Below are positions 42,202 through 46,989 of a stretch of 53,519 bases of DNA, piece by piece. Below the pieces are notes generated by a model. That model searched no databases, had not been told where the DNA came from, and saw nothing but the letters and a program-made list of their open reading frames with translations. Both the position numbers and the translations under genes were made by a program. The stretch spans positions 1 through 53,519 of the forward strand of contig CAIZKO010000090.1 in assembly GCA_903933585.1 (NCBI GenBank), read 5' to 3'. The stretch's first letter is position 1. Each line of letters opens with the position of its first letter. Source of the DNA: an uncultured Actinomycetes bacterium (GTDB lineage: Bacteria; Actinomycetota; Actinomycetes; Nanopelagicales; Nanopelagicaceae).

Positions 42202-44097
42202 GTGGTTGATCTTCATAACCACTTGCAAAGCACAAACTCACTCGTTGGATTCCTGCTCCCAGTAGTCAAAGATCTCTATCTGATCGCGATAGTTGTCGCC
42301 GTCGGTTTGATCTTTGCTATGGGATTCTTACTCGAGGAAGATCGGGGACGCCTGGGCAAGGAGGCGTTGCGGATCAAGAACTTAGCTCTTTTAGCAACGA
42401 TTGTTTGGATTGTTACAACCGTCGGGGGAGTAATTACAGAACTTGCTAATTTGCTAGGCGGCAGTTTTCTCGATGCATTTAACTCATCAACGATCCTAAG
42501 TTTTTTAACATCGACCAGTATCGGCCGCGACTACCTCTTTCAATTTGTTATGGGACTCGGCGTGGTTGCGCTACTTGTTCGAGCTAAGAAAGTTGGCGCA
42601 ATTTACTTCGCGCTTGCGCTCACCATGCTTGCGCTCCTAGTGCCGCTCTTCCAAAGCCATGCCTCCAGCGCGGGAAATCATGGGTTGGCGATCGGTTCCC
42701 TGATTTTTCACGTCGGTGCTGCTTCGCTCTGGGTTGGTGGAGTCATCGGACTTGTCGTCATCTCTCCCCGCGAACGCACCGCTTCTATCTCCAGGTTTAG
42801 CGCGCTAGCGCTCTGGGCCGCGATTATTGTTGGAATTAGTGGGGTCGCTAGCGCTTGGACCCGTTTGAATTTCTGGGCTGGTTGGCAGAGTCGCTACGGC
42901 CTGCTGGTATTAATCAAAGTTGCACTCTTTCTCGTACTTGTTGCAGTTGGAGCGAAACATCGTCGATTCATAGCGGCAAAAGTTGAAGGCTCAAAGCAAG
43001 TTCTTCGATTGTTGGTCAACGAGAGCCTCGTAATGTTCAGCGCTATCGCTATCGGCGGGTGGCTAAGTACAACGCTCCCACCTATCTCTGCGGCGGGAAT
43101 CAAGGCTGCCAGCGATCCCTCCATTGGAATCACCGGAATAGCAATGCCGGCGTCACCTACCTTCTCTCGAGTGCTCACCGCTTATTCTCCAGATGGAACG
43201 ATTTTGGGATTCTTGCTACTAATAACTGCGCTCTACATATTTGGAGTTGTCACCTTCACCAGGCGCGGCGACAAGTGGCCAGTCGGCAGAACTGTCGCCT
43301 TTGCGGTTGCGGTCGCGCTAGTTGATTTTGCAACGAGCGGCGGGATCGGGGTGTACGCGCACTTTGCATTCTCGTATCACATGCTCGCTCACATGATTCT
43401 AGGAATGATTGCCCCAATTGGTTTTGTTTTGGCCGCTCCCGTGACCTTGGCTTTGCGCACCTTGCCAGTTGGCCGCATCCCGCAGGAGCGCGGTATCCGT
43501 GGCACATTCATCACCGTCATTCATTCCAAGTATTCGGTGATCATTACGAACCCGGTTATTGCACTGGGGCTCTTTGATGGTTCACTCTTCCTGCTTTATA
43601 TGACCCCACTCTTTGGAAAGTTGATGCAATCACATAGCGGACATATCTTGATGGATGTTCACTTCTTGTTGGCGGGATATCTCTTCTTCTACGTGATCGT
43701 CGGGATCGATCCCAATCCGCGGAAGATTCCACACATCGTTCGCATCATCGTGCTCTTCGCAGCGATGAGCATCCATGCCTTCTTCTCAATCGCTTTGCTA
43801 TCAACAACAACGCTGAGCGATGGCGGATATTTTGCATCGCTCAATCGCCCGTGGAATCTCAATTTATTAGCGGACCAGCATGTTGGCGCTTCTTTAGGTT
43901 GGATGATGGGTGAGATTCCAATACTTGTGGCGCTCATTGCCACCTTTATTCAATGGACGAGAGATGATTCCCGCGAAGCCCGCCGCATCGATCGCGCGGC
44001 AGATCGTGCTGCCGCTATGGGGGAAGAGGACGAGCTCGCTAAATATAATAAGTATTTATCTACGCTCGCTAGAGGTGACCTGGAGCATCCCGACTAA
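42202..44097 (+). CDS. CopD - CtaG fusion membrane protein
   Basis: 631 residues, about 15 helices. The first half is CopD-like (FQSHASSAGNHGLAIGSLIFHVGAASLWVGG near 150-180; ARLNFWAGWQSRYGLLVLIKVALF near 215). The second half is a CtaG / caa3 oxidase assembly domain (YAHFAFSYHMLAHMILGMIAPIGFVLAAP near 390-415; HSGHILMDVHFLLAGYLFFYVIVGIDP near 475). Such fusions are common in Actinobacteria and are thought to move copper to the cytochrome oxidase. Starts with GTG; paired with the CopC-like gene. Confidence 0.9.
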   Translation: MVDLHNHLQSTNSLVGFLLPVVKDLYLIAIVVAVGLIFAMGFLLEEDRGRLGKEALRIKNLALLATIVWIVTTVGGVITELANLLGGSFLDAFNSSTILSFLTSTSIGRDYLFQFVMGLGVVALLVRAKKVGAIYFALALTMLALLVPLFQSHASSAGNHGLAIGSLIFHVGAASLWVGGVIGLVVISPRERTASISRFSALALWAAIIVGISGVASAWTRLNFWAGWQSRYGLLVLIKVALFLVLVAVGAKHRRFIAAKVEGSKQVLRLLVNESLVMFSAIAIGGWLSTTLPPISAAGIKAASDPSIGITGIAMPASPTFSRVLTAYSPDGTILGFLLLITALYIFGVVTFTRRGDKWPVGRTVAFAVAVALVDFATSGGIGVYAHFAFSYHMLAHMILGMIAPIGFVLAAPVTLALRTLPVGRIPQERGIRGTFITVIHSKYSVIITNPVIALGLFDGSLFLLYMTPLFGKLMQSHSGHILMDVHFLLAGYLFFYVIVGIDPNPRKIPHIVRIIVLFAAMSIHAFFSIALLSTTTLSDGGYFASLNRPWNLNLLADQHVGASLGWMMGEIPILVALIATFIQWTRDDSREARRIDRAADRAAAMGEEDELAKYNKYLSTLARGDLEHPD

Positions 44098-44641
44098 ATC
44101 GCAGAAGCAGCTCTGGAGTCGCCGCCGCATCTAGCTTTTGGTCGTGGCTTTCGATCGGCAAAATTTCTGGCGTTAGTTCCGCTGCTCCAACTAGTCCAAC
44201 TTTCCAAGCGCTTAGGCGGGCGAGTGCGCGATCGTAGGATCCACCACCTTGGCCCATGCGATTTCCTTCGCGATCAATGTTTAATGCAGGAACTATTACC
44301 GCACCAATCGATGAAAGATCAGCGAAGGTCGGACCGATAGGTTCCAAGACCTTACCCTTTCTAACTAACGAATCTTCTCTTCCATCCCACGCCACCCATT
44401 CAATATCTTTATCCTGTAGCGTTCTTGGCAATAAGAGGATTTTTCCCTCTCGGATTAAGGCGCTATTTATATCTACAGTTTGTGGCTCGAATCCATACGA
44501 TACATACGAGGACACAATTTGATTACTCTGGATCTCTCGAGCTTGCACGATGTGCAACCAACTCTCTGGCGTGAAAGTGAGTTCGCGCTCGCGCCGCAAC
44601 TGCGCGCGAAGTGTGTGCTTAGTCCTACTTGTTGAATCCAC
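44069..44641 (-). CDS. 5-formyltetrahydrofolate cyclo-ligase
   Basis: ATP-dependent conversion of 5-formyl-THF to 5,10-methenyl-THF. About 190 residues from the GTG at 44641, which has GGAGG 7 bases upstream; an ATG at 44665 adds eight residues but lacks a ribosome site. LRAQLRRERE near the N-terminus, SSIGAVIVPALNIDREGNRMGQGGGSYDRAL (substrate and ATP loop) and SHDQKLDAAATPE are family motifs. Its 3' end overlaps the CopD-CtaG gene by 29 bases. It is divergent from the gephyrin-like gene; galU, which often lies between them, is missing. Confidence 0.92.
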   Translation of the reverse strand: MDSTSRTKHTLRAQLRRERELTFTPESWLHIVQAREIQSNQIVSSYVSYGFEPQTVDINSALIREGKILLLPRTLQDKDIEWVAWDGREDSLVRKGKVLEPIGPTFADLSSIGAVIVPALNIDREGNRMGQGGGSYDRALARLSAWKVGLVGAAELTPEILPIESHDQKLDAAATPELLLRFSRDAPGHL

Positions 44642-44676
44642 AGGAGCACCTCCACAGGAATACATGGTGAAAGAAG

Positions 44677-44691
44677 TAAGGTTAAACCATG
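44677..44691 (+). promoter_or_regulatory. putative leaderless -10 box for glp
   Basis: TAAGGT (44677-44682) is exactly 6 bases before the ATG at 44689. Confidence 0.45.
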
Positions 44692-45606
44692 GACTCGCAG
44701 ATTACCGTCAAAAAAATGTTGGCGGACTTACTTGCGATATCTCATTCACTTGCCCCTTTTGATATGCCACTTCTCGACGCTCACGGCGCCACATTGGCCG
44801 AGGACATCTACGTCGACGACCAGATCGTCCTCCATAGAGGGGTTCGGATTCGCTCACCTCAAATTGGACTGGCGGCTTCGCTCGGGCTTTCTCGCCTCCC
44901 TACGCAGCCCCACCCACGTGTAGTTGTTATCTCTGCCGGCGATGACCTCGTGGAACCTGGGCAGTCCATTACCGCCTCGGAGGAGTTTGAAACAAACTCT
45001 TGGATGCTCGCAACCGCTGCCAAAGAGGCAGGAGCGGTCGCCTACCGCGTCCATACCATTCCAGTAAATCACGAGCAGTTGAAGTCGGTTATTGAAGATC
45101 AACTGGTTCGCGCCGATCTCATCGTGATTAGTGGTGAAAGTAATGATGGCTCCTTTGAGTTAATTGAAGAGGTTTTGCGCGAAATGGGAGAGATCGAAAG
45201 CGTCATCCCTAACCTGCAGGGCAGCGCGCGCCACTGCTATGGAACTATTGGCGAAGATGGAATCCCGGTTATAACTCTTCCCGGCGATCCCATGAGCGCC
45301 TATATTTCTTTTGAAGTATTTATCCGCCCCATGATTCGAACCATGCTCGGAGTTAAAAATGTATTTCGATCCACGGTCAAGGCGGTCTTGTCCCGAGATC
45401 TGGAATCCCCGATTGGGTATGCCTCACTCGTGCGCGCGACGCTCTCGTCTAGCGGATCAGAGGAGCCATATGTCACCCCCATCGCCGATCAAAATCACCT
45501 CCTCTCTCTTTCGCAAGCAAGCGCCTTTATAACGGTCTCCGCCGATTCACCTGGCTACTTAAAAGGTGAGATTGCAGAGATCATGATCTTGGATCGAGCT
45601 CTGTAA
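44689..45606 (+). CDS. glp: shortened gephyrin-like (MoeA/Glp-family) protein
   Basis: 305 residues against about 400 for MoeA. Residues 1-46 are MoeA domain I (LLDAHGATLAEDIYVDDQI), but the chain then jumps at about 46-52 to the returning strand of domain I (GVRIRSPQIGLAASLG). The whole domain II, including the PxxDxSxMDGYA motif, is gone. Domain III follows (PRVVVISAGDDLVEPG; ISGESNDGSFE for ISGGVSxGDYD; LPGDPMSAYISFEVFIRP) and a domain IV-like end. Molybdenum insertion is unlikely. The neighbours rimJ and sepX match the actinobacterial Glp cell-division locus. Confidence 0.85.
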   Translation: MDSQITVKKMLADLLAISHSLAPFDMPLLDAHGATLAEDIYVDDQIVLHRGVRIRSPQIGLAASLGLSRLPTQPHPRVVVISAGDDLVEPGQSITASEEFETNSWMLATAAKEAGAVAYRVHTIPVNHEQLKSVIEDQLVRADLIVISGESNDGSFELIEEVLREMGEIESVIPNLQGSARHCYGTIGEDGIPVITLPGDPMSAYISFEVFIRPMIRTMLGVKNVFRSTVKAVLSRDLESPIGYASLVRATLSSSGSEEPYVTPIADQNHLLSLSQASAFITVSADSPGYLKGEIAEIMILDRAL

Positions 45607-45608
45607 AG

Positions 45609-46184
45609 ATGCAGCGCTGGCCTTATCTGATCTCGGACCACGAGCTCTCACTCCGGCCGCTGCGCTATCGGGATCGCGCGGCATGGCAGAAAGTTCGCCG
45701 GGCAAATGCCACTTGGCTTGCACCCTGGGAGGCCACCCGTCCCACGATTGAGTCAGATGCACCCTTACCGAGTTACCTTGGAATGGTGCGCTATTACAAC
45801 AAGGAAGGTCGCGAATTGCGATCTCTATCACTCGGAATATGGCTGCGGGTCAAAGGGAAGGAACGGCTCATAGGGCAGATCACCCTGGGGGGCATAGTTC
45901 TTGGTGCATATCGCGGAGGACATATTGGCTATTGGATTGATCAAAGCGTCGCAAATAGGGGTTACACAACAAGGGCGGTAAAAGCCTTGACCCGCTTTGC
46001 TTTCACCGAGTTACAGCTTCACCGCATCGAGATAAATCTACGCCCCGAAAATGGCGCATCTAAGAAGGTGGCCGAAAAGAGCGGATATATTTTTGAGGGA
46101 GTTCGTCAGCGGTACTTACACATAGCCGGCGATTGGCGCGATCACCTCACTTTTGTCGCTGAAAATCCCAATAATTTAAATTAA
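45609..46184 (+). CDS. RimJ/RimL-type GNAT acetyltransferase
   Basis: 191 residues. RPLRYRDRAAWQKVRRANATWLAPWE near the N-terminus, GYWIDQSVANRGYTTRAVKAL (acetyl-CoA loop) near 108 and ENGASKKVAEKSGYIFEGVRQRY near 150 are characteristic of RimJ, which acetylates protein N-termini such as ribosomal S5. It begins 2 bases after glp and precedes sepX, the conserved order glp-rimJ-sepX in Actinobacteria. Confidence 0.92.
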   Translation: MQRWPYLISDHELSLRPLRYRDRAAWQKVRRANATWLAPWEATRPTIESDAPLPSYLGMVRYYNKEGRELRSLSLGIWLRVKGKERLIGQITLGGIVLGAYRGGHIGYWIDQSVANRGYTTRAVKALTRFAFTELQLHRIEINLRPENGASKKVAEKSGYIFEGVRQRYLHIAGDWRDHLTFVAENPNNLN

Positions 46185-46239: not shown

Positions 46240-46989
46240 ATGGCCTCCGGACTCATCTATCTGATTATTATCGGAATGTGGGTCGCCTACTTTTTGCCGC
46301 GCTGGATGCGTCAACATGACACCCAGTCTGGCCGCGAGAGCGAAAGATATAAAAGCGCGATGAAGATCGTCGCCTCTACTCCTAATTTTCCCGATCTGAT
46401 CGATCCGCAAGAGCGGTCGAAGGCGTTGAAGTTACGTCGCTTCATACTTGCGGGGTTGGTCGTTGCTCTCCTTGGTACCGCACTTGCAAGTGCTCTGAGT
46501 TTCCTTCCTTATCTCGCGATATTGATCCCGCTCACTGCGCTCTCTATTTATGTCATCAACGTTCGTCGCCAGGTTGTGGCTGCTCAAATTAAGAAACGCA
46601 GACTTGCTGCGCTCGCCGCGATCACTGCGGTTGAAATTAAATCAAATCCCAAAGCCCGCATTGATCTTTCCAATCATGAACGGAGCGAGAGTGAAGTAAT
46701 CGTCGAGCAATGGGTTCCACTGCGCGAACGCGAACTCACTTCCTCCATCACTATCATTGAAAGCCACGAAGAACGCAGCTGGTCTCCAATTGCCGTTCCG
46801 CGCCCAACATATACAACTGCTCCGAAAGCTGTGAGCGCAAAACGCACCATCGATTTAACAACACCTGGAAAGTGGAGCGCAGAGCAAGAGCGCCAGAAGG
46901 CCCTGGAACTACCAGAGCGCGATGAACTCTTTGATCAAGAATTAGCGGAACAAGCGGCAACGGCGCGCGATCGGGCAGTGAGCGAATAA
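46240..46989 (+). CDS. sepX: SepX/GlpR-like divisome membrane protein
   Basis: 249 residues. One N-terminal helix (ASGLIYLIIIGMWVAYFLP) followed by RWMRQHD, then a pair of helices at about 66-107, then a basic and charged cytoplasmic tail with no recognised enzyme domain. This layout and its place after glp-rimJ match SepX (Streptomyces) / GlpR (Corynebacterium), the membrane receptor of Glp in cell division. Assignment rests on topology and synteny. TACTGT lies 8 bases before the ATG, without a Shine-Dalgarno. Confidence 0.8.
   Translation: MASGLIYLIIIGMWVAYFLPRWMRQHDTQSGRESERYKSAMKIVASTPNFPDLIDPQERSKALKLRRFILAGLVVALLGTALASALSFLPYLAILIPLTALSIYVINVRRQVVAAQIKKRRLAALAAITAVEIKSNPKARIDLSNHERSESEVIVEQWVPLRERELTSSITIIESHEERSWSPIAVPRPTYTTAPKAVSAKRTIDLTTPGKWSAEQERQKALELPERDELFDQELAEQAATARDRAVSE

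Follow-up and report, generated by a model that had tools for sequence, protein, structure and literature searches.

A Nanopelagicales orthologue of the divisome protein Glp that lacks domain II

Results

A short glp gene beside glpR

We analysed a 53,519-nucleotide stretch of DNA from an uncultured member of the Nanopelagicaceae (GenBank assembly GCA_903933585.1, contig CAIZKO010000090.1), called the window throughout. The Nanopelagicales, or acI lineage, are abundant freshwater bacteria. The genes discussed here are:

44069..44665, - strand: 5-formyltetrahydrofolate cyclo-ligase, the divergent neighbour
44689..45606, + strand: glp without domain II, 305 aa; best solved relative by sequence 8bve, E 1e-34
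45609..46184, + strand: RimJ-like GNAT acetyltransferase, in the interval between glp and glpR
46240..46989, + strand: homologue of the membrane receptor SepX/GlpR, 249 aa (NF050099)

Translation of the window gave an intact open reading frame of 305 residues at 44689-45606, and its codon make-up resembled that of six adjoining genes, as a sequence-only reading of this DNA had claimed when it described an open frame with good codon use. That reading also gave the gene its own -10-like box, which a promoter scan did not bear out: there were no promoter-like sites on the + strand of 44400-44800.

In Pfam searches the protein scored above cut-off for PF00994 (domain III) and PF03454 (domain IV), and only the final 23 positions of PF03453 (domains I and II) matched it, below cut-off. 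Its top NCBIfam model was Glp_gephyrin (NF045515, E 2.6e-74, best of 11), with a score of 250.4 bits against an equivalog cut-off of 475. Three further short Glps scored 227.6-266.7 bits, whereas full-length Glps from two genera of the same family, g6 and g37, exceeded the cut-off (507 and 543 bits). We assigned the protein to Glp rather than MoeA by this best model and by its grouping with the g6 and g37 Glps in a tree, which compared it with Glps of six other genomes, excluded MoeA rows and hence is not a rooted tree of Glp versus MoeA. Of the four-domain (I-IV) architecture of Glp, the window protein lacks domain II.

The structure prediction proposed in the sequence-only reading yielded a confident AlphaFold2 model (pLDDT 88.9, pTM 0.87, 52-row alignment). 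When the model was searched with Foldseek, the first four matches were 8bve and 8bvf (TMq 0.84-0.85), the top one being Corynebacterium glutamicum Glp, 8bve. Further matches were the MoeA chain 2nqm_A and the filament-interface chain 9gw9_B of the gephyrin E domain, each listed with 322 residues and aligned nearly end to end. The window protein is an orthologue, from the Nanopelagicales, of Glp, a divisome protein of actinobacteria that is derived from the gephyrin/MoeA family.

Domain II is absent as a unit

The features around the missing domain are:

44764..44808, + strand: conserved domain I segment MPLLDAHGATLAEDI, the final residues ahead of the junction (alignments)
44797..44820, + strand: deletion junction, with the 104-residue domain II absent (alignment, accurate to within a few codons; matching to 8bve picks up again at residue 40)
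44809..44907, + strand: second half of domain I (domain limits given in the available part of PMC10522489, mapped through the 8bve alignment)
44896..44919, + strand: LPTQPHPR, the Pro-rich hinge joining domain I to domain III, with P74 and P76 invariant (alignments)

We aligned 32 short Glps with four full-length Glps of the same family, six from other families and five MoeA proteins; the rows were hand-picked, leaving out near-identical and partial loci. Residues 42-145 of a full-length Glp (locus L064), 104 in all, were missing from 32/32 short Glps, and the gap was completely empty. It corresponds to domain II of C. glutamicum Glp, published as residues 46-145 (PMC10522489, available part). 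The claim that all of domain II had been lost thus stands, with 104 residues in place of the estimated 90 or so. The junction itself was misplaced: it had been drawn from DDQI to GVRIRSPQIG, and the alignment puts it between AEDI (40) and YVDD (41), at about 44808/44809 of the window, give or take a few residues. The segment DDQIVLHRGVRIRSPQIG belongs to domain I, as its retained second half. Of the Pro-rich hinges that mark Glp between domains I and III, hinge 2 (LPTQPHPR) was found in the short protein. Domain II was removed in-frame in one event.

Distribution, single origin and selection

We found a match in 196/201 genomes of the family; two of these, G137 and G205, had MoeA-like matches only. 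The short form was present in at least 164/201, counted as a contiguous, stop-free match starting at or before residue 10 (149 of the 150 top matches listed and 15 from additional lists). One genome (G165) was ambiguous, with the first 25 residues unmatched, and another (G007) had a partial match that was nevertheless contiguous across the deletion site. The full-length type occurred in five genomes, four drawn from g6 (one of them, G095, a fragment) and one from g37. The other genomes either lacked an unambiguous Glp among the matches listed or gave no match. The deletion is therefore conserved among sister genomes, in 15 of the 17 genera sampled, the full form being confined to the other two. 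Outside the family, we took 23 genomes, one for each of 23 further families in the class, and found PF03453 at the best Glp match in all of them. Sampling the order Nanopelagicales itself (61 genomes drawn) gave this one family alone.

The source assembly is fragmented (135 contigs), which would be compatible with a deletion introduced by assembly or sequencing, a possibility that the sequence-only reading had itself raised. This is refuted by closed genomes: the identical loss was seen in the complete acI genomes of Ca. Planktophila versatilis (NZ_CP016774, L149) and IMCC19121 (CP015605, L157), and all 17/17 single-contig genomes of the family carry short Glp. We give an artefact practically no chance.

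In the Glp tree, built without columns filled in fewer than 60% of rows and so without domain II, the 32 short Glps formed a single clade (100/100), on which the deletion is one change, and g6 and g37 fell outside it. The stem of this clade measured 1.03 changes per column, compared with 0.45 for g6 and 0.35 for g37; two short rows were long-branched. A tree of FtsZ from 29 genomes had the same split between short and full-length types, weakly supported (71/51). Full-length relatives with intact motifs, which the sequence-only reading had named beforehand as evidence that would refute it, do exist in g6 and g37, but because the tree places both outside the short clade, it indicates that they keep the ancestral state and that domain II was lost once.

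Short Glp is under purifying selection. Among 16 pairs tried, ten gave dN/dS values and six were saturated; the ratio was 0.027-0.102 in eight short-Glp pairs and 0.034 and 0.063 in two full-length pairs, rough values with dS above 1 in several. The small genomes of these bacteria and the loss of a domain and of motifs could suggest a non-functional remnant decaying under genome streamlining. The low dN/dS, the stop-free contiguous match in at least 164 genomes and the confident predicted fold refute this, and we hold decay to be extremely improbable, in line with the earlier view of a gene selected and not decaying.

We found no account of domain II loss in Glp in the literature searched, with supplements, bioRxiv and most subscription journals outside the search. 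In the available part of PMC11733289, the words domain II, deletion, truncat and Nanopelagic were all absent.

The active-site loops have been rebuilt

SGGVSxG, QPGKP and LPGNP are domain III motifs of MoeA. The corresponding segments of the window protein are:

45130..45159, + strand: former active-site loop SGESNDGSFE, replacing SGGVSxGxYD; E150, D153 and S155 identical in 52/52 (alignment A2)
45217..45231, + strand: QGSAR, replacing QPG[KM]P (alignment)
45277..45291, + strand: LPGDP, replacing LPGNP (alignment)

The Asp of GGVSxGxxD is D261 in the full-length L064 protein, which we equate with D228 of E. coli MoeA by its place in the motif. It aligns with E157 of the window Glp, not with a Ser as had been thought, and this position holds D in 15/32 and E in 9/32 short Glps. 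The alignment confirmed the change from LPGNP to LPGDP and also the loss of QPGKP, though the K of that motif is already M in 6 of 10 aligned full-length Glps. Short Glp thus lacks the active-site residues of domain II, and all three domain III motifs of MoeA are changed. Because the composite active site has lost one of its halves, we infer that short Glp has been freed from Mo insertion and is not a Mo insertase.

The replacement residues are themselves conserved. Among 52 acI Glps (the window Glp and 51 of the best 80 of 558 loci), in which E150, D153 and S155 do not vary, F156 and D200 of LPGDP were each found in 49/52 and H182 in 50/52. The rebuilt loop, with consensus SGE[SR]xDxSF, lies in the highly conserved domain III, which had 3.56 bits in this set against 2.75 bits for domain IV, the lowest of the larger parts. 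This difference is not what an adaptor acting through domain IV alone would predict. Together with the change of E190 to D in 30/32 short Glps, it suggests a rival explanation, namely that the exposed domain III cleft came to bind something new, whether ligand, substrate or protein, and that selection maintains this function and not FtsZ/GlpR bridging alone. In the more diverse 32 short Glps, however, E150 was present in 24, D153 in 25 and D200 in 25, and the conserved residues might just stabilise an exposed face. We consider a re-specialised pocket rather unlikely, and we are equally doubtful that the old cofactor site was re-used as a new binding or catalytic site coupling division to another ligand or partner.

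Moco synthesis and short Glp

The sequence-only reading had named absence of the Moco pathway as evidence that would support it. For the source genome this fails: its contig C72 carries moeA (ended by the contig end), moaC, mogA, moaE and moaA, with moaC and moaE assigned by eye from sequence and position. Across the family the pathway markers are often both absent. MoeA_N (PF03453) was found in 62/201 genomes and MoaA (PF06463) in 62/201; 59 had both, three MoeA_N only (G030, G107, G188), three MoaA only (G072, G137, G222) and 136 neither, with genomes down to 70% completeness included, so that some absences are assembly gaps. MoeA_N was also absent from 68 of the 105 genomes with at least 90% completeness and at most 5% contamination, and 14 of the 17 single-contig genomes had neither marker, the other three both. 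Among the 164 short-Glp genomes, 107 lacked MoeA_N and MoaA, 55 had MoeA_N and two had MoaA alone (G072, G222). In the available part of PMC5301498, which covers four complete acI genomes, formate dehydrogenase and Moco synthesis are reported for A7 only.

These counts bear on whether short Glp might still be a Mo insertase, paired with a MoeA subunit that provides domain II in trans. The active site is formed across subunits and the source genome has MoeA, as such a mixed dimer would need; nonetheless, 107/164 short-Glp genomes are without MoeA_N and MoaA, and the domain III motifs are changed too. We judge this arrangement very improbable.

All five g6 and g37 genomes had MoaA, and the sole MoeA_N match in them was Glp itself. 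The four complete Glps of these genera (L038, L064, L067, L068) retain DNSAMDG, SGGVS, QPG[KM]P and LPGNP intact. Because no other MoeA-type protein was found in genomes that have MoaA here, the full-length Glp of g6 and g37 probably still makes the cofactor, and would be bifunctional. MoaA identities of 56-71% among four genomes do not tell whether the separate moeA cassette came by transfer.

Probable division partners of short Glp

Two further features concern binding to partners:

45358..45603, + strand: domain IV, including the equivalent of the FtsZ-binding hairpin at 45442-45474 (Pfam, alignments and the available part of PMC10522489)
46780..46875, + strand: C-terminal tail motif of GlpR, WxPxxVPxPTYxxAPKA...RxIDLTxPGxW (alignment of relatives)

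In C. glutamicum, binding of FtsZ and of GlpR both need the domain IV hairpin, according to the available part of PMC10522489. Judged by alignment, short Glp retains this hairpin in altered form. The C. glutamicum contacts to FtsZ are partly conserved: V338 and L360 are the same in the window Glp, and F414 is replaced by I, L343 by S and M361 by S. Y369/L370 read Y/V in the 8bve alignment and P/Y in a second alignment, and short Glps differ greatly from one another at these two positions; nor are M361 and L370 constant in the full-length Glps of outgroups. The FtsZ-binding loop M361-L370 of domain IV is longer than in the five MoeA proteins.

The window GlpR gave 103.7 bits with NF050099 (E 1.5e-29, best of 6), short of the cut-off of 150. 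It has hydrophobic stretches at residues 1-23 and 65-109, the second of which could hold two helices. Its tail motif was common to most of 27 aligned sequences from short-Glp, g6 and outgroup genomes, several divergent rows differing, and may be a docking peptide for Glp. Synteny of glp with glpR/sepX was found at the window locus, and the order glp-rimJ-glpR recurred in 76 of the best 80 of 558 loci, the other four ending within 765 bases. In a second set, 16/20 loci had GlpR; those without it (L040, L064, L067, L068) are short stretches around Glp.

FtsZ was found in 29/30 genomes, and all 29 carried the tail [VI]PDF[LM][KR]. Short-Glp genomes ended this tail in FMK or FMR in 19/21 cases and in FLK in 2/21 (G062, G065); FLK was found in 3/3 full-length-Glp and 5/5 outgroup genomes. 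A tail change tracking the deletion was considered and rejected as inexact, given FLK in G062 and G065. SepF was found in 23/25 genomes. One genome (G064, 89% complete) had no FtsZ or SepF match and another (G066, 93%) no SepF match; assembly gaps are possible in both.

DivIVA was not detected in the order. PF05103 matched 0/25 Nanopelagicales genomes, with the C. glutamicum control positive, and TIGR03544 was above cut-off in 0/24 (two weak matches of about 15 bits) against 5/5 outgroups. No DivIVA frame followed yggT in the acI ftsZ regions read. This position beside ftsZ by itself proves little, because of two outgroups one (L193) has DivIVA there and the other (L194) does not. Literature searches for DivIVA gave no listed entry on Nanopelagicales. 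Wag31 (DivIVA) is a known GlpR partner in C. glutamicum (PMC10522489, available part), and with DivIVA undetected, this arm of GlpR cannot be assumed in Nanopelagicales.

Discussion

Taken as a whole, the explanation that we favour, and think likely, is that the window protein is a Nanopelagicales Glp orthologue that lost domain II once and serves as a dimeric adaptor between FtsZ and GlpR, not as a Mo insertase. The ancestral Glp was probably bifunctional, as the g6 and g37 proteins still appear to be. Cofactor synthesis would then have been lost or passed to a separate MoeA, leaving domain II dispensable, and as it was deleted the former active-site loops would have changed rapidly. A dimeric short Glp would connect the FtsZ tail to membrane GlpR via its retained central dimer and domain IV. 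Because DivIVA/Wag31 was undetected in the order, short Glp probably works in septation and not in a handover to polar growth.

Short Glp shares with C. glutamicum Glp (8bve/8bvf; PMC10522489, available part) the fold, a Pro-rich hinge, GlpR synteny, an altered active site and the FtsZ tail. The C. glutamicum protein retains domain II (residues 46-145) and acts together with Wag31, whereas short Glp lacks the domain and DivIVA went undetected in the order. The full-length Glps of g6 and g37 belong to the same family as short Glp, with GlpR close by in g6 (L038); the g37 locus, a short one, yielded no GlpR. They differ in keeping domain II and the catalytic motifs, and in being the sole MoeA_N protein found in their genomes. 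They seem to be an intermediate state, in which a single protein does both jobs. Domains I, III and IV are common to short Glp and to MoeA and the Mo-insertase E domain (E. coli MoeA, Cnx1E).

A further parallel is an engineered one. In the available parts of PMC12441120 and PMC13086950, gephyrin subdomain II (SDII) joins dimers into filaments, and its deletion abolishes filaments, phase separation and synaptic clustering while dimerization and receptor binding are kept. The sequence-only reading saw a scaffold freed from molybdenum-cofactor chemistry. The second half of this agrees with the loss of half the active site; the word scaffold is doubtful, because domain II of gephyrin also forms filaments. 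Loss of domain II may have taken away lattice scaffolding as well as catalysis, and short Glp would act as an adaptor instead of a lattice scaffold. Gephyrin without SDII (residues 371-459; PMC12441120, available part) has had the equivalent domain taken from a MoeA-type dimer. The gephyrin deletion was engineered and cost clustering, whereas that of short Glp is natural, ancient and conserved, in a protein without G domain or linker. Short Glp is thus a natural, ancient counterpart of the SDII deletion, one that parts the catalytic domain of an enzyme from its cytoskeletal role and makes it testable whether bacterial Glp ever requires domain II filaments.
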